Shown: positions 18,401 through 62,660 of the stretch, piece by piece
Layout: the number at the start of each line of letters is the position of its first letter
How positions within the stretch are numbered: the stretch's first letter is position 1
Origin: Buxus sempervirens
Lineage: Eukaryota > Streptophyta > Magnoliopsida > Buxales > Buxaceae
Assembly (NCBI GenBank): GCA_947561395.2
Contig: OX387185.1
Span: forward strand, 22,821,866 to 22,885,865
Reading direction: 5' to 3'
DNA length: 64,000 nt
Made by a program: the position numbers and the translations under genes
The notes under the pieces: generated by a model
What the model was told of the DNA's origin: nothing
Seen by the model: the letters and a program-made list of their open reading frames with translations, nothing else
Databases searched by the model: none

Positions 18401-18541
18401 TTGGGTTACCACCGCGTGCTTCAATGAGACATCGACTTACACGAGCTTTATATTGTATTTTAGGTTACTTGTGACTCACACACTTGAGCTGTATTTTGGC
18501 CGTGCTTGTTGTTCACTTGTGACTTACACATGCATTGGTAT

Positions 18542-25738: not shown

Positions 25739-25752
25739 CAAAGAGGGGCAGC
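25739..25752 (+). promoter_or_regulatory. Polypurine tract of element 1
   Basis: CAAAGAGGGGCAGC-type tract directly before the LTR terminus TGTAAGCACC; element X has the equivalent AAAGGGGGGCAGC at 55934-55946. It would prime plus-strand DNA synthesis. Confidence 0.85.
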
Positions 25753-26339
25753 TGTAAGCACCCCATTTTTGCACCCCTTAGAAGTGCTGAAAATGAAAAC
25801 CCTAACAAGCAGGTCAAACCGTAGAGGAACATAAATTGACTTTTTGCTCAAGCAAAATTAACTAACATACCCTATCCAGATGGATAGGAATTTCCAACAC
25901 GGTTCTGACGCAACTGAGTTTGCCAGAATCGAGGTCCAGACGAAGTTGTGGGCAGAATCAAATCCTAGGGAGCAGTTTTGGCTTTCTGCTCAAAACTTGA
26001 ATTTACCACCATACTCCATCTCAGTGGATAGGAAATCTCGACATGGTTCCGACGCGACTGAGTTTGCCAGAATCGGGGCTCAGATAAGAAAGTTATGAGC
26101 AGGTTAAGCCCTAGGGCAAAATGCAGAAAAACTGTCCATGTGGCAAAGAAAAGGACAAAATGACAAGAAAAACAAAATATTTGGAATATAATATTAATTT
26201 CTCTAAAAATATCCTAATTTTGCTAATTAAAATAAATAAAAAATCCTAAAATTCGGATTCTCTCATTAAGCGAGAGAATCCCATCAAATCAATCAAATAG
26301 GAGAGATAGAGGGGCAAATCTGGAAAAAATCATTTTTTA

Positions 26340-26590
26340 CTAAAAATAACTGAAATTAAATTTCGATTATACACAAAATATGTATAATTGAAATTAAATT
26401 TCGATTCTAGGGATAAGGTTCGAGATTTTCTGTCAGATTTTCTAACCTTATCCCTGCAATTTCATGATTGATGATTTGATATAAGTGTAACCGAAATATA
26501 ATTTTGGTTACACATGAAAGTAGTATAACCGAAATTGTATTTCGGTTATACTTGAAATAAGTGTAACCGAAATACAATTTCAGTTACAAG
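26340..26590 (+). repeat. Palindrome array upstream of the TATA box, copy b
   Basis: Units at 26485-26513, 26523-26551 and 26561-26589 pair GTGTAACCGAAAT with ATTTCGGTTACAC (small variations), and ATTATACA/TGTATAAT pair at about 26367-26389. An unrelated word set from the other LTRs, in the same position just upstream of TATA. Confidence 0.85.
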
Positions 26591-27064
26591 TATTTTCACT
26601 ATAAAAATGAGCAGTAGCTCATTTGCTCAAGGTTGGTGATTTTGGCTTTGCTCCCCCTCTCCCCCTGTACGAAATTCCTTTCTCTACCCTCCCAACTCCC
26701 ATTAAACCCTATTCAAACACACCTAAACCCTTCCCTCCCTTCTTCTCCTTGACTTTGAACTTTGAAGGAGGCCAAGGAGGTGTTGTGTGAAGCAAAGGAG
26801 AGTGCTCTAGCTATTGTGGAAGCCTTAATAAGTCATGAAAATACCACATTTTATCACATTAATTTCATGACTTATCTGGTTTTATCTCATATTCAATTCT
26901 CAATTTTTCTTAGAAATTACCAAATTCCTTCATCTTTGTATTTTATTTTCATTATCTAAATTGTGCCTAATTTGTTGATGAAGAGACACTCTTTGTGGTT
27001 ATAGGAGTCATGGTTCAGACGGCGTCAAAATCGGAATCAAATTGAAGAAGTTATGATCAACTTT

Positions 27065-27345
27065 AGATAGCCATTTGAAGCACCATTCGAACCTTTAGTG
27101 AAAAATACAATTGCAGACAAACCCGAGAGTTGCCTTGGATAGCGTGGGATGCACCGTTTGACCGTCCAAAGTCTGCAGAGAAACCCGAGAGTTGCGTTCG
27201 ATAGCGTTTGAAGCATCGTTCGAACGTTGGTATTGATTGAGACAAACGTGAGAGTAGCGTTCGAACAAGATGGGGTGAAGTGGTTTTACGAACTGAACGT
27301 TAGAGCCGCGTTCGATGCACCGTTCGAACGCTGAAGTCGTAAAAA
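27065..27345 (+). repeat. Downstream palindrome block, copy b
   Basis: Four to five degenerate units built on GTTGCGTTCGATAGCG and GCATCGTTCGAACG. The word differs from this copy's upstream array, so the 'same word twice' pattern is not seen here. Confidence 0.75.
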
Positions 27346-27504
27346 CATCTATAAAATTCCAATTTTTTCTGATTTGTTTCCTTTTTCTCCGGGATCTTCT
27401 TCTAACCTTGTAACGCCCCAGACCCATACCCAGCAAGATATTGTCCGCTCTGGGCCCACGGGCCCTCACGGATTTGTTCTCAAGGACAACACGAGAAAAC
27501 TTCC

Positions 27505-30151: not shown

Positions 30152-30888
30152 TGTGCACACCTAAATTTGACCTAGATCGCACACGGGGCGCACGTGAATT
30201 TGTGTGTGCCTCGGGACTTTCGGAGTCGCCACTGCCTGAGAGGTGCAGGCAGACACAAGGTTTGCCTATCCGAGTCTAAGTCTGGTCTGCAGCTTATTAG
30301 AGATCTAGCTAAGTCCTCGGTTACGTCCGGGGAAGTCCGAAGACACCCCGGCCCGCCCCGTCGGTTTTGATGGGTCCCTCGGGTCTCCTGGTTTTTGAGT
30401 CAATTTCACTCTTCCTAGACCAGCATGCCACTTTTTGGTCTGGGGGGGCCCTCTGGAGGTATGGGCCTCCGTTTATTTTATTTTTATCTTTTTATTTAGG
30501 TTAGGTGGGTCGGATACGGGCCCCATTGGAAGGCCCTTGGGTTGCCAAGGTTGGGCTTAAGCCCAGTAAGGTTATTGGGTAACCCTTTTAAGTTTATTTA
30601 TTTGATTAAATTATTTAAACATATTAAGGGCTTAGTGGGCTTGGATTTGGCCCATTAGCCAGGTTGCAAATGGCCTAGGCCCGTTTATTGAAAACGGGCC
30701 TGGTATAGGCCAGACAAAGATGGGCCCCATAAGTGGGCCCGTGAGGATCTTGGTGGACCCATCTAGGCCCATGGTCCAAAAGTGGACTTAAAGCAGTCCA
30801 TATTACCTATTGGGTCGGGTCAAAACCAATTAGGGTCGGATTAGGTCCAACTGGGCCAAAAATTACATTTTTTAAGTTATTTTTAAAG

Positions 30889-30973
30889 ATGCCCGTATTT
30901 GCCATACGGGCTGGCCTTGCCCGTAAATCCAATATGGTTTAGGCCTGCCCGTATAGTAAATATGGGCACGCCC
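30889..30973 (-). repeat. Downstream palindrome array of c2
   Basis: Unit 30890-30911 pairs GCCCGTAT with ATACGGGC perfectly; unit 30946-30968 pairs GCCCGTAT with ATATGGGC; a degenerate unit lies between. Confidence 0.85.
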
Positions 30974-31835
30974 AGATCGCACTGTAAGTACGATTTTCGT
31001 CCGATTTTACTGTTTGGCGCCGACTTCGGCCGGGAACAGTTTTGCTAGCCTTCTGGAGTGTCCGGCGATTTCTGTTGGGGGTTCTAGCACATTTTCGGTT
31101 GTGCCAACATCTTCATTTGTCTTCAAATCTCCATCTCTCCTCCTTGACATTTCATCACTTGCAAACCCACATGCATGGGATTTTAAGAAAGGATATAGAA
31201 AGGGGTTACAGGGTACAACAGATGTTATGGGAGGACAAAACCCCTCCTTAATGACTGATTAAAACAAACAAAGGAAAGAACGGTGTTAGCTTAATAATAA
31301 AAAAAATGGTATCAACTTAAGCCTTTTAACTAAAAGTTGCTCTCCTCTCCCTTCGTATGGAGATTCCTCACTTTCGTGAGGTCTCTCTTTCTCGTAATGT
31401 GCAAAAGAAAGCAAGATGTAGTTAGATATGAGATTTTAAGAATAAAATAAGGAAAAGAACCTTGAGAAGATACCAAAATCAATCGAATTCCACTTATGTT
31501 GAATACAAAGTTATAGAAATGCTTACAGTGTAACCCCTGGTTTGCTTTGATGTGTGGTTGTTCTTCCGAGTGAATTCAGCAGCGCCTCCGCACTCTGATG
31601 GATTTCACGAAATGAATTTAAAAGAGGTTTGCTGGGTTTCTATGCTAAGATGTTGAAAGGGCAGGGCTTAGACGGCAGTTTAGGGGCAAAATGGGAAGTT
31701 TTCTGGGCTAAATGGATTCTAACAGGGTGTGGACGTGTAAAATATCAAAGGGAGAGAGGGGGACCATGCAAGAGACTGGGGGGACCAGCTTACACAAATG
31801 GGGGGCTGGCCCCTCTATTTATAGGCAAAAAAGTC

Positions 31836-32056
31836 ATGCCCGTACTCAAAGTGCGGGCATGCCTTGCCCGTAATTGAGTTACGGGCGCGCCTTGCCCGTA
31901 TTTCAAATACGAGTGCGCCGCCCTCGTGCACAAATCTCGTGCGAATCGCCCGTACAGGACGCGTGTCCCGTCGTATGGTGACGCATGTCCCCTTCCAAAA
32001 GGCTTGCCCGTATTTGAAGTACGGGCATGCCCTGCCCGCACTTCAAATACGGGTGA
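31836..32056 (-). repeat. Palindrome array upstream of TATA, c2
   Basis: Five clear units at 31836-31860, 31866-31886, 31894-31914, 32005-32027 and 32033-32055, all with arms TGCCCGTA...TACGGGCA, separated by GC-rich spacers. The TATA box CTATAAATAG (minus strand, 31815-31824) follows directly. Confidence 0.9.
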
Positions 32057-32599
32057 GCACGTTTTAAAAATGTTGGATTTCAAACCACTATTCAATTTAG
32101 CTTTGAGCAAATATTCTCATCCGATTTTCTATTTCTTTTTTCATTTATTTTAATTCTGCAAATAAGATTTTTTAATAATAATTATTATTTTAATCCAAAT
32201 TTTTATTTTTCTGATTTTTGTGCCACACAGGCAGTTTTTCTAAAACTTTGACTGCCCATAACTTCTTCGTCCGGTGTCCGATTTCAGCAAACTTGGAGTC
32301 GTTGGAATCGGCTTGGAACCCACTATCCATTGGGATCAATTTAGGCAACTGCATTGGGGTCGAGCAAAAAGTCAACTTTTTGCTCCCCAAAAGTTTGACC
32401 AGTTCATAACTTTCTCATCCGGACTCCGATTCCAGCAAATTTAGTTGCGTTAGAATCGTGTCGAAATGCTCTTTTTAATGAGATTAAGTTTGATGGCCAA
32501 ATTTACTTGAATCAAAAAGTCAATTTTTTGACCCCCTCAGGGTTTGACTTTTAGTTTGACTTTTCATTTTCTTTCTTTTAGGGGTGCAAAAATCAGGTG

Positions 32600-33903
32600 T
32601 GTGCGCACCCGATTTCGGTCGCACGACGAGGCGTATGCAAAACGATGCGTGCCTCGGGATTGTTTGGAGTCGCCACTGCCTGATGGGGTGCAGGCAGACA
32701 CCTGGGTGCCTAAGTTCTTCTACTAAGGCTTGGTCTGCGGCTTGAGATTCTAAGTAGGTTCTCGGTTGCAGTCTGGGGAAGTCCGTAGACACCCCAGTCC
32801 ACCCCGTCAAGTGACGAGTCCCATAGGATTCCCTGGTTTGAGGCAACTCAGTTGGTCTCTCACTCACCCAATGCCTAATCCAGCATTCAATTTTGGTTAA
32901 GTCTGGCGGGACCGCCAAAGTGGTGTGGGTCCCTTTACTTGATTTTATCTTCTTATTATTGAATGAAGTGAGTCTGATTGGGCGGGCCCCGTTGGAAGGC
33001 CCGCGGATTCCTTGGTGGGCTTGGTTGAGCCCACGTGTCCCTTGTGGGCCTCAGTCTAGCCTGAGATGCCCTTTGGGCTTTGGTTCAAATGAATTGATTT
33101 TACTTTAGGGTTTAAGTTGGATTATTTAAATGGATTTCATGCCAAAAGTGGGCCGGGATTGCTTTGTGGGCCCTTGAGTGGGCCACACAGTTGATTGCCA
33201 AAAGAATGTTTTGATTTATCTTTCTTATCTATTCCAAAATGCGCCAGGCCTTGGGCTTGGGGCCATTTACCTGGGCTTGGGCTTGAGAGCCCAAGGTTTC
33301 TTGAATTAGGGTTTTGTAAACCCTAACCTTGGTTGGGTTCAATGGGCTTAATGGGCCCGACAGGCCCTGCCCGTGGTCTCGGCCGAACCACAACTTAACT
33401 ACGCATGCATGCCCCAAGTTGGGCTTTGGTGGGCCTCAAAGGGTCTGGCCCACTCAACTCTTTTAATTGTCTTATTTAAGCACAAATAGGTTGGTCGGGC
33501 CCCGTTGGAAGGCCCACCGGAAATCAATTTGGACCGGGTCGGTCCATGGCCCATCTTGGGTTTCCGGGTGACCCGGAAACCCTACTGGTTCACCCGGATT
33601 TGATCAAACAAGCCAAAACATAGCAAAAGATCAGGAAATGGCTCAAAATGACTTCTGGCAGTGTAGCCGGCCTGAGATGCCGGTTACACACAGGTCTCTG
33701 TGTATCCGGCATCTATTGCCGGCTACACATAGGCTTATGTTGATCCGGCCTGAGTTGCCGGATCATCCAAAAACTTGGTTTTTTCGGATCTTGGCATTGG
33801 GCTTGGATTCCTGGGCCTCTCAAGGTGTTCCAGGGGTTGTATGGGCTCCTGTGTGAACCCACATTGGTTCAGGTGAATGGGTGATCTCCCCCACATTGGG
33901 GAG
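32600..33903 (-). mobile_element. Beta LTR c3, 3' portion, inverted
   Basis: Begins TGTGCGCACCCGATTTCGG, the exact reverse of the end of LTR H (63955-63973). Signature 'gtcgccactgcctgatgggg' at 32670. Carries the palindrome block 33661-33765. Interrupted at 33903 by c4; the sequence right of c4 (37971 on) may be its continuation, but I find no beta-LTR end before 38662. Confidence 0.7.
33661..33765 (-). repeat. Palindrome array of c3
   Basis: Three units at 33661-33689, 33700-33728 and 33741-33765 with arms GTGTAGCCGGC...GCCGGTTACAC and TGATCCGGC...GCCGGATCA. The vocabulary is close to that of c4. Confidence 0.88.
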
Positions 33904-34949
33904 TGTGCGCGCGTCATAAACATGGCACGGGAAAGTTCGGAGTCGCCACCTCCTGATGGGGTGCAGGCGGACACCTGGGTGCCTAAGTTTGTCTATTTTG
34001 GGCTTTGGTCTGCGGCTTGAGATTCTAAGTAGGGTCTCGGTTGTGGTCGGGGGAAGTCCGTAGACATCCCGGTCCACCCCGTCGGGTGACGGGTCCCGTG
34101 GGTTCCCTGGTTTGAGTCAACTTACTTTGGTTTCTCACTCGATTCCCAATCCGATATGCAATTAGGTTAAGTCTGTCGGTACCTCCTGAGTGGTGTGGGT
34201 CCCTTTAATTGATTTTATCTTGCTTAATTTAGGTGGTCTGAGTCTGACTGGGTGGGCCCCGTTGGAAGGCCCACGGTGTCCTTGGTGGGCTTGGGTGAGC
34301 CCATGTGCCCTTGGTGGGCCTCTGTCTAGTCCTAGGAGGCCCTTTGGGCTTAGGTTAGTGAGTTGATTTTTACTTAATTGTTTTAAGTTGGAATTTTAGG
34401 TGATTTTCATGCAAGAGGTTGGTCGGTATTGGTTGGCGGGCCCCTGAGTGGGCCCCCATGGTGGATGCCAAAGTATTTTCAATTTACCTTCTTAAAATTG
34501 GCCAAGGTATTCTGGACATTAGGCTTGGGGCCCATAATCCAGCTTTGGGCTTGAGAGCCCAAATTCCATGCAGTTAGGGTTAAACCCTCCCTTGGTTTGG
34601 TTAGTGGGCTTTGGTGGGCCCGATAGGCCCTTGCCCTGGGTCTCGGCCAAACCACGCAATTTAAACATCATTCCGCACCACAAGGTTCTGGTGGGCCGCA
34701 TTGGGTTTGGCCCGCCCGATTCGATCAAGTGACTTTTGCTTAGCTTGTTTATTTTGCATGCTTTAGGATTTACTGGGCTTGGTGGGCCCCGTTGGAAGGC
34801 CCACGGGTATTCCGAGTTGGACAGGCGGTCCATGTCCCCAGTTGGGTTTCTGGGTGACCCGGAAACCCTATTGGTTCATTTGGTTTTGCTGGAAATAACA
34901 TGAAAATTTGGCAAGGAATCACAAGATCATAAAATTGCATTTCTGTGGT

Positions 34950-35013
34950 GTATCCGGCCTTAGTTGCCGGATACACACAGGCCATAGGTGATCCGGCCTG
35001 AGTTGCCGGATCA
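34950..35013 (-). repeat. Downstream palindrome block of c4
   Basis: Units 34950-34974 (arms GTATCCGGC/GCCGGATAC) and 34989-35013 (TGATCCGGC/GCCGGATCA). Same word as the upstream array of this LTR. Confidence 0.9.
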
Positions 35014-35950
35014 CCCCAAAAATGGCCTTTTTCGGGCTTTGGCCATTGGGGTGGTTTTCAGGGGCTTCCTAGGGCCTCCTACAAGTCTTGTAGGCCCCTA
35101 AGTGGGCCCACATTGGTTCAGGTTTGGGAGAAGCCTCATTTGGCTTCCTTTGGGACTTTCGGGAAATGGCAAAGGAGCTAGCCATGGTGCATGGGCCTGC
35201 TGCTCCACCTCTTTCCAGCAACCAGTAGCAATGATATGGGGGGCTTAGCACCGCAAATTTCATGACTTCACATCATTAATTAACCAATCATTAAAGCCAC
35301 AGCAAGCATGTATCCTTAGTTAAACCAAATAACCGCATGAACCCGCGTGTCATGAAGTGAGGAACAGCAACGCTAAAAAACAGTAGCTAACATTCAAGCA
35401 CTAGAACATTACTAAGGGGATGAGGGATGCATGGAGTTTGATGGCACTCACACGTGGCACTTTGGGGACTGATTTAAGGGTGCACACAGATGAGAATCTA
35501 CCGGAACAGCAACCATTTGGAGGGGATCAACATGCTTTCATGGGTTGAAAATAATGGGCAGGTGGGGTGGGGGAGCAGACTTGTGCGTGCACAAAAGAGA
35601 AGCGAGAAAGCAGCAGGTAAAGGGGGTTGGGATCATGTTCACACACACACCAAAAAAATAGCAAATGGTGAGGGGGAGGTTAGAGGAACCTACATGTTAG
35701 CACCAAATAGTAAACCCAACCGGGAGAATGACCATGCATCCCCATCAATCAGCAATAGGTCATAGGGGAACAGGTGACATGCTTGATATCCGAAAGTCAA
35801 TAAATCACCAAAGAGAAGGACGTGCACTTCCGTCTCAAAATAGAAAGGTAACCCAAACAAATAAACATGAGTATGACTACAGGTTAATGTGTTAGGTCTG
35901 CAAAACACAAAAAAAAAAGACGGAGAAAGGGAAGAGAGGGTCATGCACAT

Positions 35951-35977
35951 GGGGGGGGGGGGGGGGGGGGGGGGGGG
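35951..35977 (+). repeat. G27 homopolymer
   Basis: Uninterrupted run of 27 G followed by AGGAGG. The exact length may be an assembly artefact. Confidence 0.85.
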
Positions 35978-37137
35978 AGGAGGATTGAACTTGCTGGGAA
36001 CAGCAGTAGCACCAAGGCCTACCGCTGTCCCCAGCAGCAGCCTAAATGGGTTAACATGAGGGTGTAAAGGGGGCGGGTAAACACACAAAAAGACAAATGG
36101 TAAACAGAAAAAAAACCACCAAATAGCCATTGACAAATGGCAGATTATAGATGATATTGGTGAGTGTTTTGATAACACCCAAAGCATGTGCATGCAAGTA
36201 AGACATGGTCCCTAGGGACTGATTTCCTTGTAACAAAAAAAACAGCAGCTCACATATGTTCCTACTCAATCATACATGTGATTACAGCAAAAGAAAAGAG
36301 TGCTCATGAGACCCTATCATGCCCCCTAGAAAAATAAGCAAACTTCATGCATGCATACCACCATATGCCATTACAAAAAAAAGAATACAGCAAGAAGTAA
36401 AGAAAGGGTTGGGGTGCACGATTAGCAGTAAAATACCAAAGAAGTCTTAAATAAAAGTGAGAAAAGAGGAGAGAGGAGAAGGGAAATGGGGGCTGTTAGA
36501 GGGATACATAAGAGAAAAACTGAGAAGGGACATGCTCCTTCTTTTCATGCATAAAAAACACTGCTGTAAACCCCAAAATCCAGCAACCTCTCGGGACATT
36601 TGAACCTATTTCTACCAACTAGAAAACCTTCCCTTCCCTACTTCAAACCACCGGAGGCCTACCTCTCTTATCGTAGACGAAGCATATCCCATGGAAAGCA
36701 AGAAAAAATAATGGAGAGAGAAGGAAACTCACATTTCTTGCACAAGAAACTATCACAACATGCATGGGAATTTACATGCTCTAAATAGACTAAAACTCAT
36801 ATATGTGGAATAAAACCTTGCAAGGATGCTTACCTTGTGTCCACAAAATGTTTTTGAGGTATGCTTCAACCTCCCCTAGACTTGGACGGTTGCTGGAACT
36901 CCCCCTTGTAGCACCAACAGCAACAAACCTCTCTTTGTTTTCGTAGGAAAGTGAAGAAGAAGTAGAGAGCAAGGGGTTTAATGGTCTTGGGATGGGGTAA
37001 AGGGATTATGGAGGGCAAAGAGAGTTGAAGAAGGGAGGGTTTGGGTGGGAAAGTGTGGTGGAAGAAAGCTGAGAAACAACCAAAGAAGCCAACCCCCAGC
37101 CAGAGGTGGCTACTGTGCTTTTATAGACAAACTTAAT

Positions 37138-37382
37138 GTATCCGGCATTAAATGTCAGATACACTACATGTCCTTCGTATCCGGCATTTAATTTCAGATA
37201 CACTGAACCTCCTTTGTATCCGGCATAAAATATCGGATACAAACAAAATTATTTCAAAAATTTAATGCCGCCGCGAATTTGTCGGGGAATCGGTGCGAAT
37301 CTCGCCGAGCAAATCTTTGTATCCAACATTTGAGTCCGGATATGAAGAGGAGCAAGTGTATCCGGCATATTTGGTCGGATAC
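37138..37382 (-). repeat. Palindrome array upstream of TATA, c4
   Basis: Five 25-bp units at 37138-37162, 37177-37201, 37216-37240, 37319-37343 and 37358-37382, arms GTATCCGGCAT and its complement, centre AT-rich and variable. The TATA box (minus strand CTATAAAAG at 37117-37127) is adjacent. Confidence 0.92.
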
Positions 37383-37970
37383 AAATCAAAAAATTACGGA
37401 TTTGCCCCTCGACTTGACCGATTCGACCGATTTGACACTTTTGGATATCTACTGATTGCCCCCTGCGAAATTTTACTTTAAACCCTGGGATATTTTGCAT
37501 GTTTGGATATTTACGGATTGCCCCTCGAGATATTTTGCTGCGTTGGCTGCCACGTTTGCAGTTCCTGCGCCACGTGTGCAGTTTCCGATTTTGCTGCTCG
37601 GAAACTTCGACAGCTCATATCTTCTTCATTCGGACTCCAATTTGAGCAAACTCAATTGCGTTAGGCTCGTATCAGAGCCATCTATCCAATGACATAAGGC
37701 TAAGCACTTGGCACGGGGTTCGAGGAAAAGTCAACTTTCAGCTCATCCTCAAGTTTGACCGGCCCACAGAACCTTCATCCGAACTCTAATTCCAGCAAAC
37801 TCAGTTGCGTTGGAACCGTGTCGAGATTGTCTATCCATTGAGATAAATCAAGGTGGCCAATTATCACTTGATCAAAAGGTCAAATCTCGACCCCTCAGGG
37901 TTTGACTTTTTAGCCGGGTTTTACATTTTCGGCTTTTTCAGGAGCGCAAAAATGAGGTGCTTACAGGGAG

Positions 37971-38662: not shown

Positions 38663-39314
38663 TGTAAGCACCCAAATTTTGATCAAACCAAAATATGCTA
38701 AAATGAAAACCCTAGCTGAAAAGTCAAACCCTAAGGGGGCAAAAGTTGACTTTTTTATCAGGTTCAAATCTGCCACCATACTTCTTCCCTATGATTAGGA
38801 AATTCCGACACGATCCTAACGCAACTGAGTTTGCTCGGATCGAGGTTCGGATGAAGAAGATATGGCTGGTCAAACTTGAGGGGAGCAGAAATTGACTTTC
38901 TACTAAACCCCAGAACAGCTGACCAAACTTGTCCCAGTGGATAGGTTATCCTAACACGATTCCAACGCAATTGAGTTTGGTTGAATCGGAGTCCCGGATA
39001 ATAAGTTATTAGCAAAACAAGAAACCCTAAAAACTGCCAACGTGACAAAAACAGTAGAGAAAATAGCAGAAAAAGGTGTCTGGGGGCAAATCCCTAAATA
39101 TCAGGACATTCAAAAATATTTGAGGGCATTTTTGTAATTGCTTAAGGATGAATCCGTAAATATCCAAAATGTTAAAAATATCTCAGGGATTAATCTGTAA
39201 ATATCAAAAGTTCTAAAATATCTCAAGGATGAATATGTAATTATCTAGGGATGAATCTGTGAATATCAAATTGATGAGAAAATAGCTCAGGGGCCAATCT
39301 GCAAATATCAAGAT

Positions 39315-39566
39315 TTGCTCTCTCTCTCTCTCTCTCATGATTGGTGTTCCCCATGTGCATGCATGTGCATCCCATCATGCATACACCTCTCTCTCTCTCT
39401 CTCCCTCATGAGCACCCATGCATGCATCATGCATACATCTTTCTCTCTCTCTCTCTCTCTCTCTCATGATTAATGTTCCCCATGTGCATCCCCCATGCAT
39501 CAACTCTCTCCCTCTCTCTCCCTCCCCATGCATCATGCACCACACTCATGCATCACCCCATGCATC

Positions 39567-39637
<71 letters not shown>

Positions 39638-39650
39638 CATGCATGCATCT
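39315..39650 (+). repeat. CT microsatellite with CATGCATG words, X 5' LTR
   Basis: Four CT tracts alternate with words such as GTGCATGCATGTGCATCCC and CCATGCATGCATGCATC, ending just before the TATA box. CATGCATG is the RY element bound by plant B3-domain factors. The apparent Leu-Ser repeat frames here are microsatellite artefacts. Confidence 0.88.
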
Positions 39651-40643
39651 TCCATGCCATGCCCATTATAAAATCCCCCATAACCCCATACGTAGAGAGG
39701 ATGAGCTCATTTTTTGGCTCATGTCATTTCCTCTCCAACCTCTCTCCCAAGCTCTCTTCATCTCTCCCACTAGTTCATCCCACTTCTCCAAGTCCCTCCT
39801 TGCCTCCTAAATCACCTAAGCTCCATTCTAAGACACTTTGATCCCTCCCCAACCTATCCTCCTTCACAAAAAGTCTTGCAAGATCCCAAGAAGCTGCTGT
39901 TGGAGTCGGAGGGAACATCTCCAGCTCTTGTGGTGTTTCAAAGGACCTCAATCACATCTCAAAAGGGCTCTCAGCCCCCAAGGTAAAGCTTCCATATGTA
40001 TCTTGTTCACCATATATGGATATGAGCATGTTCCAAGCATTTCAAGGTGTTCTCCATTTTTTAACATGTTATCTTTCTCCCCAAGCATGTTAGTGCCTAT
40101 TTTCTTCACTTTTCTTCTTCATTTCGAATGAGAAAACCCCCATGGTAAAGGGGAATGCACGAATGGACCTAAGGGGGGAAGAGGGTTTTATTTTCATAAC
40201 CTTAAGGTCTTCAAAGTTGATGTCACGTTTCTGATTTTTCCTATTTAAACATGGGAGCTTGTTCCCTTCCTCTTAACTCTCATGTACCCCTTTTCATAAG
40301 CCCCTTTGTCCCTTCTCTTGCTTGTTTTTTTTTATCTTCATGGTAGCTAGTCTTAGCATGTTTTAGAACATTGATTTCAGCATTTTTTAAGCTCGATGAA
40401 GCATACGTATACATGTGTAAAGGATCCCATATGCATGCTCCCACACCCCCAAGGTACCCCAAGTCTTGTATGGACATCATGATAAGTCCCCTTGATTGGA
40501 TTTGTTAGCGTCCACTCATGTACACATGCACACTTTGTGTTTACCCACTGATTTCGGTAACTTCATGTGCCCCATTTGTTTGCTGCCATGTGAGTAGGGA
40601 AAACCCAAAAGGCAGGCCCATTCAAAAAAAGACCACTTTCAGA

Positions 40644-40786
40644 CTGATCCGACAACTCAGGTCGGATCAGTAGATTTTTGTTTGTAGCCGACTTGGGTGG
40701 TCGGCTACATGTAGTTCTGTGTGTAGCCGACACCCCAGGTCGGCTACATAGGCTTTTGTGTGTAGCTGACAACTCAAGTCGGCTAC
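40644..40786 (+). repeat. Palindrome array, X 5' LTR
   Basis: Four units at 40644-40670 (CTGATCCGAC...GTCGGATCAG), 40684-40708, 40723-40747 and 40762-40786 (GTAGCCGAC...GTCGGCTAC). Confidence 0.92.
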
Positions 40787-41816
40787 ACTGTGGAAATGTC
40801 AATTTTTGCATTTTCTTTGTTTTATGTTATTTTTATGATCTTTTAATCGAACTGAATGAACCAGTAGGGTTTCGGGTATGGGACTTGGACTATACTGATC
40901 CAACCGGATTCGTTGTGGGCCTTCCAACGGGGCCCACCAAGCCTGACAAACTCACTTGAGTGTAAGTAAGCAAATCTAATCAGATGAGTGGGTCATACCA
41001 TTGAAGGCCCACCGAAGCCCAATTTGTAGCATGCTGGATAGCCTAGGTGTGGTTTGGCCGCGACCATGGGCTTGGGTCTATCGGGCCCAGCTCCCTTCAA
41101 GGGAAGCCCACAAACCAAAGGAGGGGATCCGTTAGCCCCAACCCCAATGCCTTGGGCTTTCAAGCCCAAACCTAGATTATGGGCCCCAAGCCCATGCCTG
41201 GGCCTTTTGAAAAGACTAAACAAAGATAATTAAAGTATCAAGGCAACTACTGTGTGGCCCACCCAATGGGCCCACAAAACTATCCAGGCCCACCAAGCAT
41301 AAATCTTAAACTCTTTGGATCAAACCTTAAATAAAATCAACCAAATCAACCAAAACCGAAAGGTTTATCCAATGTAACCCCAAACGGGACTTGAGCTTCC
41401 ACTAAAGCCCAAATTGGTATCCGTGGGCCTTCCAACGGGGCCCACACACCAGAACCAGATCACTCAGGTTAGATAAGATAAAACAAAATTAATGGGACCC
41501 ACACCACTCAGGTGGTTCCACCAGACCCAATAAAATGTGCATACTGGCTTAGGAACCGGGTGAGATAGACCAAAACAAGTTGACTCAAACCAGGAAACCC
41601 ATGGGACCCGTCATTCGACGGGGGCGGACCGGGGTGTCTACGAACTTCCCCGAACCGTAACCGAGACCCTACTTAGAATCTCAAGCCATAGACCAGCCTA
41701 TTAGACAAACTTAGGCACCCAGGTGTCTGCCTGCACCCCATCAGGCAGTGGCAACTCCAACCTTCCCGAACTACCCTTTAGGAGGCACGCCTCGCCGTGC
41801 AACCATGCGCCCAACC

Positions 41817-41834
41817 TGGTAACTCCGCTGGGGA
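41817..41834 (+). promoter_or_regulatory. Primer-binding site of element X
   Basis: TGGTAACTCCGCTGGGGA three bases after the LTR. It resembles the Ogre/Tat primer site complementary to the 3' end of tRNA-Arg (TGGCGACTCTGCTGGGGA as I remember it) with a few mismatches. It marks the start of the internal region. Confidence 0.75.
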
Positions 41835-43380
41835 CTCTCAACCCAATAAAACCCCTGGTTAGAATGAGTCAACGTAAGAGGAATTTAGTCGATTTTAGGG
41901 ATTCCTACCGCCTTATCTTAGTAAAGCATAGAATACGCGCATATACGGATTCTGGGGAGTCCTGTCATAAAGGAGGAGATAATTGCCTAAGGCAATTGGA
42001 TTTTAAGCAGGACCATTATGACCCCTCCAATTACCTGGGGACTCTCCCAGAACATCGTATTGCATGCCAGTTCTGCACTTTACTATATAAGACACTAAAA
42101 ATTCCTTTATCAACAAAAATCCAAGTCAAAACTCACCCGTTTAGACACAGCACTCAGCCCAACTGCACACACGGGCACACCACTACATCGTGGATGGGTT
42201 TCTTTTATAGTTTTCATGATAAACTGCGTGTGGTGACATGCACAAGGGAGACTGCGTGAATGATCCGACCCTGAATGGATGGATAAGGATATTGTATCTT
42301 CTTTACCAAAACTTAGACCTCTCTAGCAGCCACCCTTCTGATTCCTATGAACTGACTTTGGGATTGTATTAGCCCTACACTCCCGTGGCTTGCCGGGGAA
42401 AGCAGGGTAAACCCATCTCCCCAGGTTTCTGGATTCCTATAGCACCACTGGTTTCTTGCCATGGTACGCGAGAGTCTAGTACTGGTCCAGACCCTTGTAG
42501 GCGTATGTCTCGGGCTGGGTATCCTTCCCCACCTATCGCTTCTGAATAAACCGCGTTTTGTGATTGTAATATGATGTGAATGATGAATACAAGAGGAGTA
42601 AAAGCAATCTAAAACCCAAGAGTCCATTAGGGGCAGCAACCTTCGCATTTTTGCATCCAATTGAGTAAACCCTAGATCATGGGCTACCTCAGCCCTAATT
42701 TAGGAAGCCAACCAAAATTTTATCAGGGGAACCACCCCATCTCCATGCATTGAGTCCTGTGAGCCGTGGGCCTCAACCCATTGAGTCCGCTAGAAGCACG
42801 CTAAGTCCGGGTCAGTCTTCAGGTAGATGAAAGCCAGCCAGATCAGAAAAAGCAGACGAAAGGAAGCCAGATCAGAGCAGGGGCAGTGAAACCCTAGATC
42901 TAGGACTTTTCAGCCTACCCCTTTGAATTCAATTGTATCCTGTCATAGGGTTCCCAACAACCCTGGGATTGAACACTGTTTTTAATTTTTTAGGCTTCAA
43001 GTGATTTCGCCCTCATTGGCAAGTTGTAAGCATTTCTTCGATCAGATTGCAGAGATTCTTCAAAACAGATGAAAGAAAAGGCTGATCAGGATTTAGATGT
43101 GCTTCCTCACACAAGTACGTCTAGGAGTCGTGCCTTCGATGGCACCAACCCTTTTAGGGCTACACACACATTTCAATTTCGTTTTGTGTGTTTTGTTTGA
43201 ACCTATGTCAGGGGATGGTAAGCCCCGCTACATTTGCCTTTACCTTCCTACACATGCATAAACCATTTGCACATCAAAGTGCACCCATTTCAAAATCAAA
43301 ACCACACCAACACTTTTGGTCAAAATTGCTTTAAAAAAAATTTTCAAAAAAATGAATTTTCAAAATCAAATCGCTTTCAG

Positions 43381-55485: not shown

Positions 55486-55946
55486 ACCTCCTCACCAAGA
55501 GCACCTCCTCCTTCCTTTCTCCTTCCGTTCCTTGGCCCACCTCCAACCGCCATTCCTAAAAAAAAAAATGCTTACACCCTGAAAATTGCATCCTCACTGA
55601 AATCTGAGAAGCTGAATCATCCAAAAAAACTCAAAACCAGTGCACCGACATTAAAGCAATGCACGGGCATGTGCAAAGCGTCACTTCTTTCTCAAAACCG
55701 GAAAAGTGCAAAACGTCACTTATTCCCGAGAACCAGAATCTAGAAAAGGTGCAAATCACCACCTATTTCTAAGAACCAAAAACGGGAAAAGTACCACACG
55801 CGTAACAAGCTCGCGTTAATGTGCTTTATCCCACAAACCAAAAATCTACTCCCAGGCTCTCTCAGAAAGATGTGAGGAATGCAAAATTTGGGTTTCTTTC
55901 AACCTTTGTAATTCGTCAACAAGTGACTCCGACAAAGGGGGGCAGC
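55486..55946 (+). other. Element X 3' end with polypurine tract
   Basis: Resumes the 3' region after copy E ('ccaagagcacctcctcc', homologous to element 1 at about 25290-25320) and ends with the purine tract AAAGGGGGGCAGC (55934-55946) directly before the LTR. Confidence 0.82.
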
Positions 55947-56588
55947 TGTAAGCACCCAAATTTTGATCAAACCAAAATATGCTAAAATGAAAACCCTAGA
56001 TGAAAAGTCAAACCCTAAGGGGCAAAAGTTGAATTTTTGATCAAGTTCAAATATGCCACCATACTTCTTCCCTATGATTAGGAAATTCTAACACAATCCT
56101 AACGCAACTGAGTTTGCTTAGATCAAGGTCCGGACAAAGAAGATATGAGCTGATCAAACTTGAGGGGGAGCAGAAATTGACTTTCTGCTAAACCCCAGAA
56201 CAGCTGCCCAAACTTGTCCCAGTGGACAGGTCATCTTGACACGATTCCAACGCAACTGAGTTTGCTTGAATCGGAGTCCCGGATAATAAGTTATGAGCAA
56301 AACAAGAAACCCTAAAAACTGCCTACGTGGCAAAAACAGTAGAGAAAGGTGTCTGGGGGCAAATCCGTAAATGTCAGGACATTCAAAAATATCTGAGGGA
56401 ATATTTGTAATTGCTTAAGGATGAATCCATAAATATCCAGAATGCTAAAAATATCTCAGGGATTAATCTGTAAATATCAAAGTTCTAAAATATCTCAGGG
56501 ATGAATCTATAATTATCTAGGGATGAATCTGTGAATATCAAATTGATGAGAAAATAGCTCAGGGGCCAATCTGCAAATATCAAGATTT

Positions 56589-56589
<1 letters not shown>

Positions 56590-56642
<53 letters not shown>

Positions 56643-56688
56643 GATTGGTGTTCCCCATGTGCATGCATGTGCATCCCATCATGCATAC

Positions 56689-56757
<69 letters not shown>

Positions 56758-56758
56758 C
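56590..56758 (+). repeat. CT microsatellites, X 3' LTR left of copy F
   Basis: Two CT tracts (56593-56640 and 56692-56755), longer than the matching tracts in the 5' LTR; ends in C8. Continues at 59236-59490 after copy F. Confidence 0.9.
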
Positions 56759-56795
56759 CCCCCATGAGCACCCATGCATGTATCATGCATACACC

Positions 56796-59230
56796 TGTAA
56801 GACCCCGAATTTTCCTAAATATAAAAGTAAAATAATAATTAATATTCTTGAGGATTATTATTGATAGAAATATTTTATTAATGTAGGTGATATCATAATT
56901 AGTAGAGATCCAGAGTTGGGTGCAGATCCGACTGTCTGATTGTGAGATATCGAGGTATGATCAATAGTTTAATTCTGATGAATAGTGATTGGGCAAGGTA
57001 CATTGAGTTTTATGTAAATGTGTTGCGTGGGATAGGAGGTATATAAATACGTTAAAAATAACCTAGGAGAATATGTTGGTATTCTATTCGTATACCTTTT
57101 TGTTTGCTGAGTACTCGACGGCCGCAGAATACAGAAGTCGCGCGACCGAAGAAGAAAGGAAGAAGAAGAAGAAGGAAAATGGAGAGTATTGCTTTGATAT
57201 TCATCTCCCGAGCATTGCCTGGTATCAGTGAAGAAGAGTAAACACTGTTGGTTAGAGGAAGAAGAGGAGAAACGTTCGCAGGAGGTAGGCAACACTGTTT
57301 TGACGTTGGTTTTGTATTCACGATTGGTTTAATCTCCATTGCATGTTTTTATGTTGTATATTCATGTATTTAGTTTGATAACAACCTTATAAGCATGATA
57401 GTATCGATTTGAGCATGAAGAATCAAGTTTTTGAATACTGTATGTTCGTTTTTGGGAGACCGCTGAGCTTACTGTGCTCAGCGATTCTCGGCACTCCCAG
57501 GTGCTCGTTGAAATAAGTAGACCGCCTACTAACTTATCGTTGGCGATTGATTTTTAACTACCGCCTACCCTAGACCGCTTGAGCGATCCTAGGTGATCCT
57601 GAGCGCTCTGTGTAGAAAATGTAGATTTTTGTATTTTTAACCCTTGATTCAATTCTAAACTATTTTTAACAAATTTTAACCTTTAAATAAGATGTTTTAA
57701 GACCAAAATAAATTACCAATTCCCTGTTTTACAAAAGAATAAAAATAGGAAGGTATTTAGGGTAATTAGTGGCCAAGCTTGGTAAATAGCAAGAAACCTA
57801 AGTTTTGGAAGAACTGAACTTGTAAACTTGAGAGAATTAATTGACATGTAAATTTATACTGTCAACTAGAATATGATATACAGGATTTCGAGATCAGATT
57901 TTGAACACAGTTAACCCAATAAGGAAAGAAATTATAGATATAACCATTATATGCCGCTTGGCACTATTACATACAGAAATATTAGTCCTTAGGGATTGTT
58001 GGTGTCTAGTGGGCATAGCTGGTTATGGATCCATAGTTTTGGCTAGATAGCTAAGGGATATTTCATTTTGGTTGGGTTACTCCGTGTTGCGAACGCGTTT
58101 CCTTTGCAAGTTGGTTTGCTCTGGAGGATCCTATGTCTGAAGGGACACCCTGGTGCTCCGCTAGTGATTCCCTGTATATGTGGATAAGCGACCATCTCCA
58201 TGTATTGATTTCAATGCTGCATGCTACTGGTACTTGCCAACTCGGTTGAGTTCATGTGCAATAAGTCGATGATTACGGCTCTTATCTAAGGCGATCTTCA
58301 CGGGTTTAAGTATCATTAGTAGCGTCGCCCATAAGCCGCACAGTGGTATAGCATATGGTTGAGAGTCATCTAAAACGTGTATCTTTCTTTGTGAGTCCTA
58401 CAATGATACTGAGATCACAAACACTTACTTCTGATATTGTTCACATGCTGGACGCATGTATTGGATGCTATGGTTGGATGTGACTGTTTAATACATCCTG
58501 GATTGTTATATTAGATTTTATTATTGATTTCTGAGTCATGATCTTGATAAACTTTATACTGTTCACAAATACTTAAACTGTTTTACATACTGATTTGTAT
58601 TCCATTATCGATATGAATGTTTATACGAGTCTGTTTACTCGAGACTGCTTATTCGTGCATGAACATCTATTATTACTGATTATAAACTGTTTATAGCATG
58701 CATGTGTTGTCTACTAAGATATTCGTATCTCACCCTACTTGTTTATGTTATTTTTTAGCTGATACGAGAGAGGGGGATCATAGTCGTGATTTCCAGAGTG
58801 ATCTTGTTGACTATTTGCCAGAGGCGTATTATTATCCCGATTGATTTGAGGTTGAGGAAAGATGATTGATGAGACTTTAGATAGTTTGATATTATTTTAT
58901 TAATTAATTGATTTTGATGTATCTAAGAGATTAAGTGATTAGAACCTTTTGATTATTAGCAAACTTAAATGATTAATTGGATTGGATGGTTTATTTGACT
59001 TCTTTTATGAAGATGTTGGTATACACTTCCGCACATTAATGTTCCGCACTCTGATAGTTTATAAATAAATGATTTATTTAATTCTTTAGTCTGGTTAATT
59101 ATTGATGATTATTTGATATGGGCCAGTAGCATCTCGAATTCGGTTGTTGAGCTGGATTCGGGTTGTTACAGTAGCGAACTGGATTCGAGTTAGGTGCCGG
59201 TTTGCATTGACCTGGGTTTGGGGCATTACA
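56796..59230 (+). mobile_element. Alpha solo LTR, copy F
   Basis: 2435 bp, TGTAAGACCCC...GGGGCATTACA, perfect duplication ACACC (56791-56795, 59231-59235). TATATAAATA near 57039, donor-like GAG/GTAGGC (57284/57285), CpG block 57455-57615, hairpin 58716-58731, acceptor-like TTTTTTAG ending 58758. No minisatellite. Same subfamily as copy A. Confidence 0.92.
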
Positions 59231-59235
59231 ACACC

Positions 59236-59428
59236 TCTCTCTCTCTCTCTCTCCTCCATGCGCACCCATGCATGCATCATGCATACCTCTCTCTCTCTCT
59301 CTCTCTCTTTCTCATGATTAATGTTCCCCATGTGCATCCCTCATGCATCACACATCACCCATGCATCAACTCTCTCTCTCTCACTCCCCATGCATCATGC
59401 ACCACACTCATGCATCACCCCATGCATA

Positions 59429-59489
<61 letters not shown>

Positions 59490-59490
59490 A
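59236..59490 (+). repeat. CT microsatellites, X 3' LTR right of copy F
   Basis: CT tracts alternating with CCATGCATGCATC-like words, homologous to 39400-39640. Confidence 0.9.
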
Positions 59491-60699
59491 TGAATGCATG
59501 CATCTTCCATGCATTGCCCATTATAAACCCCCCATAACCCCATACGTAGAGAGGAGGAGCTCATTTTTTGGCTCATCTCATTTCCTCTCCAACCTCTTTC
59601 CCAAGCTCTTTTCATCTCTCCCACTAGTTCATCCCACTTCTCCAAGTCCCTCCTTGCCTCCTAAATCACCTAAGCTCCATTCTAAGACACTTTGATCCCT
59701 CCCCAACCTATCCTCCTTCACAAAAAGTCTTGCAAGATCCCAAGAAGCTGCTGTTGGAGTCGGAGGGAACATCTCCAGCTCTTGTGGTGTTTCAAAGGAC
59801 CTCAATCACATCTCAAAAGGGCTCTCAGCCCCCAAGGTAAAGCTTCCATATGTATCTTGTTCACCATATATGGATATGAGCATGTTCCAAGCATTTCATG
59901 GTGTTCTCCATTTTTTAACATGTTATCTTTCTCTCCAAGCATGTTAGTGCCTATTTTCTTCACTTTTCTTCTTCATTTCGAATGAGAAAACCCCCATGGT
60001 AAAGGGGAATGCACGAATGGACCTAAGGGAGGAAGAGGGTGTTATTTTCATAACCTTAAGGTCTTCAAAGTTGATGTTACGTTTCTAATTTTTCCTATTT
60101 AAACAAGGGAGCTTGTTCCCCTCCTCTTAACTCTCATGTACCCCTTTTCATAAGCCCCTTTGTCCTTTCTCTTGCTTGTTTTTCTTTATCTTCATGATAG
60201 CTAGTCTTAGCATGTTTTAGAACATTGATTTCAGCATTTTTTAAGCTCCATGAAGCATACGTATACATGTGTAAAGGATCCCATATGCATGCTCCCACAC
60301 CCCCAAGGTACCCTAAGTTGAGTTTGTATACATCTTGCATGGACGTCATGATAAGTCCCCTTGATTGGATTTGTTAGCGTCCACTCATGTACACATGCAC
60401 ACTTTGTGTTTACCCACTGATTTTGGTAACTTCATGTGCCCCATTTGTTTGCTGCCATGTGAGTTGGGAAAACCCAAAAGGCAAGCCCATTCAAGAAAAT
60501 CCCAAAAAAAGACCACTTTCAGACTGATCCGACAACTCAGGTCGGATCAGTAGATTTTTATTTGTAGCCGACCATGGGTTATTTGTAGCCGACCACCCAT
60601 GGTTGGTGTAAGCACCTTATTTTTGCACCCCTGGAATTGCTGAAAATGAAAACCCTGGCAGAAAGTCAAACCCCGAGGGGACAAAAAGTTGAATTTTTG

Positions 60700-61250
60700 A
60701 TTAAGTGATATTTGGCCACCTTGCTTTATATCATTGGATAGAGAATCTCGACATGATTCCAACGCAACTGAGTTTTTAGGAATCGGAGTCTGGATGAAGG
60801 TTCTGCAGGAGGTCAAACTTGGGCAAAGCCAAAAGTTGACTTTATACTAAAATCCGATCCAGCCGCCTTGCTTTATATCACTGGATAGAGAATCTCGACA
60901 CGATTCCAACGCAACTGAGTTTGTAGGAATCGGAGTCCGGATGAAGGTCCTGCGGGTAGTCAAACTTGAGCGAAGCCAAAAGTTGACTTTCTGCTAAAAT
61001 CCGATCCAGAGGCCTTGCTTTATATCATTGGATAGAGAATCTCGACATGGTTCCAACGCAACTGAGTTTGCAGGAATCGAAGTCCAGATGAAGGTTCTGC
61101 GGGCGGTCAAACTTGGGCGAAGCCAAAAGTTGACTTTCTGCTAAAATCCGATCCAGAGGCCTACCCCTAGGTCATGGGATAGAGGGCTCCGATACAATTC
61201 TAACACAACTGAGTTTGCCCAGATTGGAGCCCGGATGAAAAAAATATGAG
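60700..61250 (+). repeat. U3 tandem repeats in LTR H
   Basis: Four units of about 130-150 bp ('gatagagaatctcgacatg' then 'attccaacgcaactgagttt' then 'ggaatcggagtccggatgaa'). Two units are usual in the other beta LTRs. Arms GATTCC and GGAATC flank a core with the MYB-type word CAACTG. Confidence 0.88.
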
Positions 61251-61478
61251 CTGACAAAATTCCTGAGCAGCAAAACCGGCAATCTGCGCGCGTGGCAAAA
61301 AGCTGCACACGTGGCGAGTTGCACAGGAAAATATCTCAGGGATCAAATCCGTAAATATCCAAACATTCAAAAGATCCCAGGGACCAATCTGAAAATATTT
61401 GTAAATATCTGAATAAAATAATATTAAATCCAAATATCCCAGGGACCATATCCTAATTTTCGGATTTTTTAAACAAAC

Positions 61479-61572
61479 GAGCGGCGGCATTTATTGTTTT
61501 GTCATAATTATGCCGCTCGCGCGAACGTGGCAAGCGGTATGCGCTCACCTTGAGCTGGGCGCCAAAGTGAGC
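61479..61572 (+). repeat. Palindrome block upstream of TATA, LTR H
   Basis: Hairpin arms GAGCGGC...GCCGCTC (61479-61519) and GCTCAC/GTGAGC (61543-61572), just upstream of TATA at 61591. Confidence 0.75.
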
Positions 61573-62409
61573 AGATACCCCTTTTCCCTTGCCTATATAA
61601 GCCACGCGAGTCTTCATTGCAAGGGGTTGGGCATTTCTTGGGGGTTGGACATTCTTAAGGGTTGAAGATTTTTTTAAGGTCGGGAAATTTTTTGGTTCGG
61701 ACTTTTGGGGGTTCGGAAATTGTGGAGGTTGGATTTGAGGGTTTGCTGTTCTTCGGCATTCAAAGGAGAAGGAGGAGCTTGCCGAGTGAGCCCAAAGGAG
61801 GAGAGTTCAACCGCTGCTGGAGCTTCAAAGGGGGAGCCTACCTTCTCACTTCAGAAGGGTGTTTTGACACCCATGTAATGTTCCCGACCATCCCCTTTTT
61901 TCGAATATAAGCTCATTTCAAGCATAGCATGTCATGATGTTTTACATTCTACCATTTTGTTTACTACTACTGCTGGTGTGATTCGAAGGAGAGCATGTTC
62001 CCCGTGGTCATTTCATCTCGTGTACCCCATTATAAACCCCCTTGTCCCTTCACTGTTAATTTGTTGATGTGTGATTTTGAGGTTCGGTTTACGATATGTT
62101 AGGTTAGATTAATTCCAATACAAGTTTAAGTGCCTTCTGGGGGTGGTCGAAGCCCGGGGAAGTGTTCTGGGCAATATTATTCGTGATGTATTTTGATTGC
62201 ATGGTTGTATTGTGAGTTTTCTGGCTTCCTGGAACATCATGAGTCCGAGCATGAAAGGGAATTACAACTTGAGATAAAATGTGTTTAGATTAAATCCAAA
62301 ACTAGTTGGGAAGTGTTCTGGGCATATTAGGAGACTAGTGGAACAATTACAGGCCGAAAAAGATCGGCCAGAGATGGATATCTCGAAATAACAGAGAGTT
62401 GAAAATCAC

Positions 62410-62660
62410 AGTGAATAGCCGCTCACTTGCGCTCACTTAGGAAGTAGGCATCCCTTTTATTTCACTACCCGCCGAGCTGGCACCCACTTGGCGCTCAGCT
62501 CGCGCTCACTTAAAACCATGTGCAATTCTGGCGCCCATCTCGCGCCCACTTGGAGCTCAGCTCGCGCTCATTTTCCGCCCAGCTCGCGCTCACTTAGTAT
62601 CGAGTGAGCGCTAGGTCCAAATTTTGCCTGGTTCTTAGCGCCTACTGGCGCTCACTTCAG
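62410..62660 (+). repeat. gcgctcac word block, LTR H
   Basis: Many repeats of GCGCTCACTT, GAGCTCAGCTCG and GGCGCCCA; one perfect 9-bp stem GCGCTCACT/AGTGAGCGC at 62586-62611. Shares GCGCTCAC and GAGCTGG with the upstream block of the same LTR. Confidence 0.85.

Follow-up and report, generated by a model that had tools for sequence, protein, structure and literature searches.

VANDAL elements are DNA transposons. Upstream arrays of Gal4-type fungal sites, CGG-N11-CCG, have triplets 11 bases apart for two dimer subunits, and retroviral genomic RNAs carry dimer-initiation kissing loops, that is, complementary hairpin loops. VANC proteins, in the account given in part of PMC5735166, bind arrays of short motifs that occur in more than one non-coding region of an element family, and they evolve together with these motifs. 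In Arabidopsis they are anti-silencing proteins of the VANDAL elements, whose motif sets differ between families and subgroups, with motifs and proteins described as changing together in portions of two sources (PMC5735166, PMC10398659). Here we describe paired arrays of short palindromes in the long terminal repeats (LTRs) of a large retrotransposon family in a 64,000-nucleotide stretch of Buxus sempervirens DNA (hereafter the window; contig OX387185.1, positions 22,821,866 to 22,885,865, or G000:C6:22821866-22885865 in the 676.5 Mb genome to which all genome-wide counts refer), which is plant nuclear DNA, judged by its elements. Most words of these arrays are versions of one bipartite palindrome, CCG-N11-CGG, and the match between the words upstream and downstream of the TATA box belongs to subfamilies of the LTR, not to single copies.

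Read in the sense direction, the LTRs consist of a 350-bp start module, a palindromic array in the unique 3' region (the U3 array), the TATA box, a leader, a second array (the downstream array) and a terminal module, D, of 0.4 to 1.2 kb that reaches the LTR end. The best preserved copies have five sites before TATA, arranged as two plus three, and two to four sites about 0.9 to 2.1 kb after it, where the downstream array falls in the expected transcribed leader. This agrees with the preliminary description of this DNA, which had placed one array of a full element near the 5' end of its RNA, after TATA, and the U3 array towards the 3' end. Direct reading of the sequence likewise found the palindromic units of two copies, c4 and c2, where they had been reported, and the arrays of these copies and of the adjoining copy c3 are as follows.

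33904..37965, minus strand: c4, a complete solo LTR (sense 5'-TGTAAGCACC...GCGCGCACA-3'), from direct reading and module alignments.
33899-33903 and 37966-37970: the 5-bp target duplication of c4, GGGAG.
37138..37382, minus strand: U3 array of c4, upstream of TATA (about 37118-37127), with five units of the word TATCCGGC, some of them decayed.
37362 and 37220: CCG-N11-CGG in the c4 U3 array with symmetric flanks (4 of 5 and 3 of 5, respectively).
36828..36839, minus strand: splice-donor-like CAAG/GTAAGC, about 292 nt past the c4 TATA and upstream of the downstream array.
34948..35015, minus strand: downstream array of c4, with GTATCCGGC and TGATCCGGC units and CCG-N11-CGG at 34954 and 34993.
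30153..32605, minus strand: the c2 LTR, borders approximate, its 5' end fused to the 3' end of c3.
31835..32056, minus strand: U3 array of c2, five TGCCCGTA units (two plus three) with a 28-bp period and symmetric CCG-N11-CGG at 31840, 31868 and 32008.
30889..30975, minus strand: downstream array of c2, TGCCCGTA units with a 28-bp period and CCG-N11-CGG at 30893.
33664..33767, minus strand: downstream array of c3, with TATCCGGC/TGATCCGGC words, also TAGCCGGC, and CCG-N11-CGG at 33667, 33706 and 33745.

The c4 words GTATCCGGC/GCCGGATAC occur in both arrays of that copy (37138-37382 and 34948-35015), as do the words TGCCCGTA/TACGGGCA in those of c2 (31835-32056 and 30889-30975). A word had been proposed to be private to its copy, which fails at c3, where the array at 33664-33767 carries the words of c4. 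Word sharing was compared in 21 copies falling into seven groups. Five of these copies lie in the window and the other 16 come from 15 loci; the k-mer test left out L127 and counted both L124 and L125, the two LTRs of one element. Of the 20 loci L110-L129, 16 were usable; L114, L118, L122 and L123 have no pair of U3 and downstream arrays and were left out, and L119a and the window LTR g are unpaired. The sample covers one chromosome stretch of one genome plus extra loci, its copies are related, and the array windows (the last 330-460 bases before TATA and the last 560-620 before D) were set after seeing the arrays. CpG-containing 8-mers common to the U3 and downstream arrays numbered 6.43 for the same copy, 7.11 for a sister copy and 1.22 for another subfamily. 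Among 5040 permutations of the group assignment, the true one was reached by 1 (itself) with CpG 8-mers, 22 with 7-mers and 104 with 6-mers, and by 1 to 2 with G+C-rich k-mers. Matching of a copy with itself was reached by 4 of 6 permutations in the c4-type (three copies) and, in the c2-type (seven copies), by 796 of 5040 with half-sites and 426 of 5040 with 8-mers. Own-copy matching is thus not special, and hence the words belong to subfamilies. The earlier claim of two arrays with matching words stands beyond chance at this level but is not specific to single copies: similarity within a copy exceeds that to other subfamilies and does not exceed that to sister copies. Gene conversion between the arrays after insertion is not supported, since the arrays of one copy agree no more closely than those of sister copies.

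The frame under these words is shared more widely than the words themselves. In the c4-, c2- and L120-types CCG-N11-CGG underlies the U3 and the downstream array alike; in the e-type (downstream), the b1-type (U3) and the L116-type (downstream) it underlies one array only, e and b1 being further LTRs of the window. When CCG-Nk-CGG was counted for k = 0-30 in 21 copies (L125 dropped, L127 kept), k = 11 gave 38 matches in the U3 arrays and 43 in the downstream ones; the next highest counts were 7 and 10, both at k = 24, and the remaining parts of the same LTRs held only 2 and 3 at k = 11. Over the whole window, sites with at least 4 of 5 symmetric flanks numbered 18 at k = 11, 15 of them inside the 1,609 bases of arrays, and between 0 and 2 at every other k in the range 4 to 30; 30 second-order Markov windows had at most 2 symmetric sites at any k. 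At 18 loci (162 kb) there were 65 sites at k = 11, followed by 10 at k = 24. The same positions stood out in 90 palindromes gathered without reference to CCG, in which positions -8 to -6 carried 1.04, 0.67 and 0.95 bits and others at most 0.45. Genome-wide, the c2 word in the form GCCCGT-N{3,23}-ACGGGC had k = 11 in 47 of 50 distinct places among the matches listed (15,139 places in all; the reversed control, which is able to match the joint between units, gave 3,880). The palindromy of the arrays, as it had been described, is borne out by summed stem scores above all 100 first-order resamplings in each of seven stretches, some by narrow margins (30.6 against a maximum of 29.3 for the c4 U3 array, 18.6 against 18.3 for the c2 downstream array, and 17.0 against 16.0 and 27.1 against 26.4 for the U3 and downstream arrays of the window LTR H).

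The bases around the triplets distinguish the subfamilies. With the flank of a half-site defined as the three bases outside and the two bases inside its CCG (79 sites, 16 copies, without the H-type), identity was 0.74 between the halves of a unit, 0.71 between units of the same array, 0.59 between the U3 and downstream arrays of one copy and 0.52 between those of sister copies of a subfamily; across subfamilies it was 0.23-0.25, the pooled composition giving an expectation of 0.38. Separate units are nearly as alike as the two halves of a unit, as expected if a protein reads half-sites. When flanks and loops were compared in the same manner on 15 copies, again without the H-type, the U3 and downstream arrays of one copy agreed at 0.62 in flanks and 0.47 in loops, and those of different subfamilies at 0.24 and 0.45. 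Hence flanks match between arrays but loops do not, which favors half-sites read by one dimeric factor. All five units of the two-plus-three U3 layout are present in L124, L126, c2, L112 and L129, and the layout is partial in L121 (two plus two), L117 (one plus two) and L110 and L113a (fewer), with the three proximal units clear in b1; it recurs under differing words, and the unit period is 28 bp in the c2-type and 38-39 bp in b1 and the c4-type.

We propose that the promoter-flanking arrays are read by a dimeric factor that binds DNA sequence-specifically, with a specificity that varies from subfamily to subfamily and to which the two arrays alike conform, a proposal whose chances we consider to be evenly balanced. 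One subunit of the factor would contact each half-site, the protein fold would fix CCG and the 17-bp geometry, and the flanking bases would set specificity. When a lineage shifts to a factor with a new specificity, encoded by the element or supplied by a host paralogue, both arrays would have their sites replaced, with unit duplication within an array as the raw material, and factor binding to the arrays would activate the promoter or relieve its silencing. Protein binding, control of the promoter, coevolution and the intron placement considered below are what we infer from the sequences. A stricter lock-and-key version, in which each subfamily has its own dimeric activator or anti-silencer, perhaps element-encoded, that reads N3-CCG-N2 half-sites at the constant N11 spacing, with arrays switching together and no cross-activation, is rather doubtful.

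Several observations weigh against the DNA-binding factor. Because the copies share descent, the counts overstate independence, and the types in which U3 and downstream arrays both contain the site number just three. The e-type (three of the 21 sampled copies) has no CCG-N11-CGG in U3 and no matched U3 array, and H-type LTRs have no symmetric site, L115 and L119b having one asymmetric U3 match each; the site is absent from both arrays of L127 and from the U3 array of L116. The word of b1 is not common to both arrays, and in the c2-type the downstream words (GACCGTA, AACCGTA) are mostly at least one base off the U3 word GCCCGTA. Both counter-examples of the preliminary description hold, as the LTR called X, taken here as e, has CATGCATG and CT repeats in U3, and copy b has GTAACCGAAAT upstream and GTTCGAACG downstream, which are different words. 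Moreover, AACCG-N{1,25}-CGGTT had k = 11 in only 6 of 85 distinct places among the matches listed, other lengths, which stem from other repeats, being commoner (a total of 33,121 places, against 20,746 for the reversed control). With the triplets exchanged, CGG-Nk-CCG peaks within the arrays as well (12 and 14 at k = 9, 14 and 19 at k = 11), as unit periodicity would give. A scan of 18 distinct open reading frame pieces, not of whole elements, for a candidate binding protein yielded only retroelement enzymes, gag or nothing. Finally, a run of 24 identical bases that takes in the loop is common to the two arrays of L125.

The U3 arrays could instead be interchangeable enhancers for different host factors, with the downstream array as a second enhancer. 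We regard ordinary host factor sites as a possible but unlikely explanation, which overlaps the proposal of a dimeric factor where that factor is a host paralogue, so that the two are not exclusive. The U3 arrays lie shortly upstream of TATA in the types examined, and the CATGCATG repeats of the e-type U3 resemble the RY element of seed-type promoters, recognized by B3 factors. However, unrelated factors alone would not yield a single CCG-N11-CGG frame in the two arrays with flanks that are specific to the subfamily.

Slightly less probable is concerted evolution without function, in which tandem palindromic units arise and are copied between arrays by template switching in reverse transcription or by gene conversion, leaving each lineage with a single kind of unit in the two positions. 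Copying does explain whole units common to both arrays, as in L125, and the 28-bp period of the c2-type and its spacer AAGGCA, often in both arrays, also point this way, as does the similarity of loops inside one array (0.61). In a tree of D modules, read without branch support values, H and L119 group with L128, L115, L122 and c3 despite differing upstream parts, and thus LTR blocks seem to recombine. Between arrays, however, loops are at background (0.47 versus 0.45) while flanks are matched (0.62 versus 0.24), the N11 spacing and CCG persist under differing words, and the layout before TATA recurs despite periods of 28 bp and 38-39 bp.

The preliminary description had suggested that matched hairpins could let the RNA recognize itself, for circularisation, dimerisation or packaging. 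In this reading, hairpins near the 5' and 3' ends would pair within or between genomes, for these purposes or for first-strand transfer. In several c4-type LTRs elsewhere in the genome (L124-L126 and others) the U3 hairpin before TATA, with loop CTGAGTT, repeats the first downstream hairpin, with loop AACTCAG, in inverted orientation, so that the two loops are complementary. Among 100 places listed, 41 had an anchor in reach, with 12 of 13 matches in the U3 zone opposite in orientation and 24 of 28 downstream matches in the same sense; after merging, five independent U3-positive c4-type LTRs remained, all opposite, with one further same-sense match. This inverted hairpin belongs to one lineage and could go back to a copy of the last, inverted, unit of the downstream array. 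The ACTCAG loop of the first downstream hairpin recurs in several subfamilies while the stems vary with compensation (inner pairs in 100 hairpins: GC..GC 43, GT..AC 18, AC..GT 17, other 22), and the loop strand shows 17 G·U versus 6 A·C, a count that includes antisense U3 units and inherited copies. A splice-donor-like site, scored with a matrix of approximate frequencies, lies in 15 of 20 copies within one 30-nt window from 279 bases past TATA, where the best window in 60 Markov resamplings held a mean of 9.2 and a maximum of 12. As this site is upstream of the downstream array, the latter may lie in an intron, be kept only in unspliced RNA and so mark it.

The other RNA-level results did not extend this part of the claim. 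Loop pairs complementary over at least 6 bases numbered 6 of 99 in the c4-type versus 2 with U3 reversed, and the mean predicted hairpin-hairpin gain was small (-3.1 versus -2.0 kcal/mol with U3 reversed); c2-type loops showed no excess (4 versus 5 of 484 with U3 reversed). The c4 of the window has no complementary loop, its two listed U3 loops being CAAATAT and ATTTTAT, the e-type has no matched U3 array, and loops are otherwise unmatched between arrays. Stems defined by Watson-Crick pairing had 12 G·U versus 16 A·C in 58 downstream hairpins and 11 versus 14 in 44 U3 hairpins, and this lack of a G·U excess gives no sign of selection on sense-strand RNA, with the reservation that the counts are small and decay of old copies may blur them. 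Hairpins of the D module reached -165 kcal/mol versus -42 to -65 in 12 column-shuffled alignments, with 23 of 134 pairs altered on both sides versus 2 to 13 in shuffles; an RNA-specific structure there was rejected, since the antisense strand folds as well (-180 kcal/mol). The data thus fit a DNA-binding factor better than RNA self-recognition, which is improbable and which we rank third, after the DNA-binding factor and unit copying.

The window is rich in LTRs of this one large family, whose sense strand opens with TGTAAGCACC in copies that still have their start and finishes near GCGCACA; close to the 3' end lies a 17-base motif that occurs 9,971 times in the genome (4968 + 5003; control 0). 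An IMG/VR pattern search with the 3' motif gave 71 stretches, none window-like at E 1e-5. The LTRs are of the Tat/Ogre type of Ty3/gypsy elements. An open frame in L125 beside a c4-type LTR has RT_RNaseH (77-181), RVT_3 (238-356), integrase zinc binding (449-504) and rve (523-620) domains, and thus contains the second RNase H between RNase H and integrase that is a feature of Tat/Ogre-Retand elements. Pieces upstream of b1 keep the order of reverse transcriptase (RT), RNase H, second RNase H and integrase, rve scoring 31.4 bits there, just under the cut-off of 32.6. Primer binding sites after the L124 and e LTRs and a polypurine tract before g are further Tat/Ogre-Retand features, the site after e being, we assume, of the tRNA-Arg type. 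The order RNase H, second RNase H and integrase is given for Ogre and Retand in the part of PMC6317226 consulted. The remaining features of the window are these.

25752..27405, plus strand: LTR b1 (copy b, from 25752), whose U3 contains GTAACCGAAAT units (site at 26529) and whose downstream stretch contains GTTCGAACG repeats.
30678..30700, minus strand: an extra CCG-N11-CGG palindrome in the c2 D module (GGCCCGTTTATTGAAAACGGGCC on the plus strand); L103 and L104 have similar hairpins.
38663..41813, plus strand: e, the 5' LTR of a Tat/Ogre-like element, with TATA near 39668.
About 39312-39660, plus strand: U3 of e, with CATGCATG and CT repeats.
40643..40790, plus strand: downstream array of e, four hairpin units with CCG-N11-CGG at 40649, 40688 and 40727.
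41817..41835, plus strand: primer binding site TGGTAACTCCGCTGGGGAC after LTR e; a similar motif follows the L124 LTR.
55934..55946, plus strand: polypurine tract AAAGGGGGGCAGC directly 5' of LTR g.
55947..60606, plus strand: g, the inferred 3' LTR of the element of e, with a downstream-array site at 60529; it runs past the window.
60607..63974, plus strand: LTR H, inside a hairpin of the g downstream array, with flanks GTTGG and GTCGG.
61479-61572 and 62410-62660, plus strand: GCGCTCAC-type repeats of H, without CCG-N11-CGG in the array regions.

H shares GCGCTCAC and GAGCTGG between these two stretches, as had been reported. LTR g is broken by an insertion at about 56796-59230 and by H at 60607. 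The hairpin of the g array that H splits (60600-60611 and 63970-63979) reads TGTAGCCGAC, and the insertion point of c4 is the edge of a CTCCCC...GGGGAG palindrome; for plant LTR elements a palindrome preference at insertion is described as only weak in the part of PMC6911290 consulted. The e/g-type U3 (39312-39660, 56590-56795 and 59231-59500) consists of CATGCATG and a CT microsatellite, unlike other subfamilies. A polypurine-like stretch precedes b1, which is therefore probably the 3' LTR of an element with RT/RNase H/integrase pieces at 14049-22778. In copy b, an insertion with 5S-like stretches interrupts the downstream part of the LTR: 27408-28198 contains two copies of about 358 bp, 94% identical, both of which include a minus-strand stretch resembling 5S rRNA (26.3 bits at E 0.005, where the gathering score is 38; no match at gathering), and is probably a Cassandra-type terminal-repeat retrotransposon in miniature inserted in b1. 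An isolated CCG-N11-CGG palindrome, CAACCGCACTTACAGTGCGGTTG, lies at 603-619, outside the studied arrays.

The D modules (e.g. 33904-34890 and 62990-63974) contain many conserved short palindromes, among them GTGGGCC...GGCCCAC and GGGTTTCCGGG...CCCGGAAACCC, which are stable on both strands. At about 30-75 bases before LTR ends (e.g. 33937-33965, minus strand; 63880-63908, plus strand) the hairpin CTGCCTG...CAGGCAG, or a variant of it, precedes the ten bases TGGCGACTCC, with which the primer binding site TGGCGACTCCGCTGGGGAC after the L124 LTR also opens: a copy resembling the primer binding site within the LTR; the motif around it is the one with 9,971 genome occurrences. At G000:C1 8865071-8989391 the LTR hairpin pattern occurs three times in steps of 61,027 bases, which suggests a tandem segmental triplication.

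No description of paired LTR palindrome arrays was found in titles and the beginnings of abstracts, which does not establish their absence from print. If a matched protein does read the sites, this family would be a second lineage with motif-protein coevolution of the VANC kind, and we know of no earlier case in an LTR retrotransposon. It would also point to a way in which related elements of the same genome stay under separate control, and a 17-bp CCG-N11-CGG probe with the flanks given here could fish out the factor. Otherwise, the arrays remain a clean example of concerted turnover under a fixed geometry, in a family with 9,971 LTR-end motifs.

Compared with Tat/Ogre elements, the likeness lies in domain order, a primer binding site presumably of the tRNA-Arg type, long LTRs and the 5-bp target duplication at c4, and the difference in the LTR palindrome arrays, which are not mentioned in the part of PMC6317226 consulted. 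Compared with kissing loops, the complementary loops here are found in one subfamily, with the partners at opposite RNA ends, and conservation of pairing at the RNA level, in G·U tolerance and strand specificity, was not seen. With Gal4-type sites these arrays share triplets 11 bases apart and the upstream position, but the triplets are reversed, as CCG-N11-CGG, and the flanks vary by subfamily; we know of no Gal4-type protein family in plants. As far as VANDAL motifs are set out in the sources cited at the beginning, the likeness consists of short motifs in several non-coding regions that are subfamily-specific, here in the subfamilies with the site in both arrays, while VANDAL motifs are in one orientation and those described here are palindromic two-half sites with a fixed N11 spacing in an LTR retrotransposon. 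Hence the resemblance to the VANDAL/VANC system holds at the level of the motifs, with the cognate protein here putative and no membership of that system claimed, and the paired arrays may represent an LTR retrotransposon counterpart.

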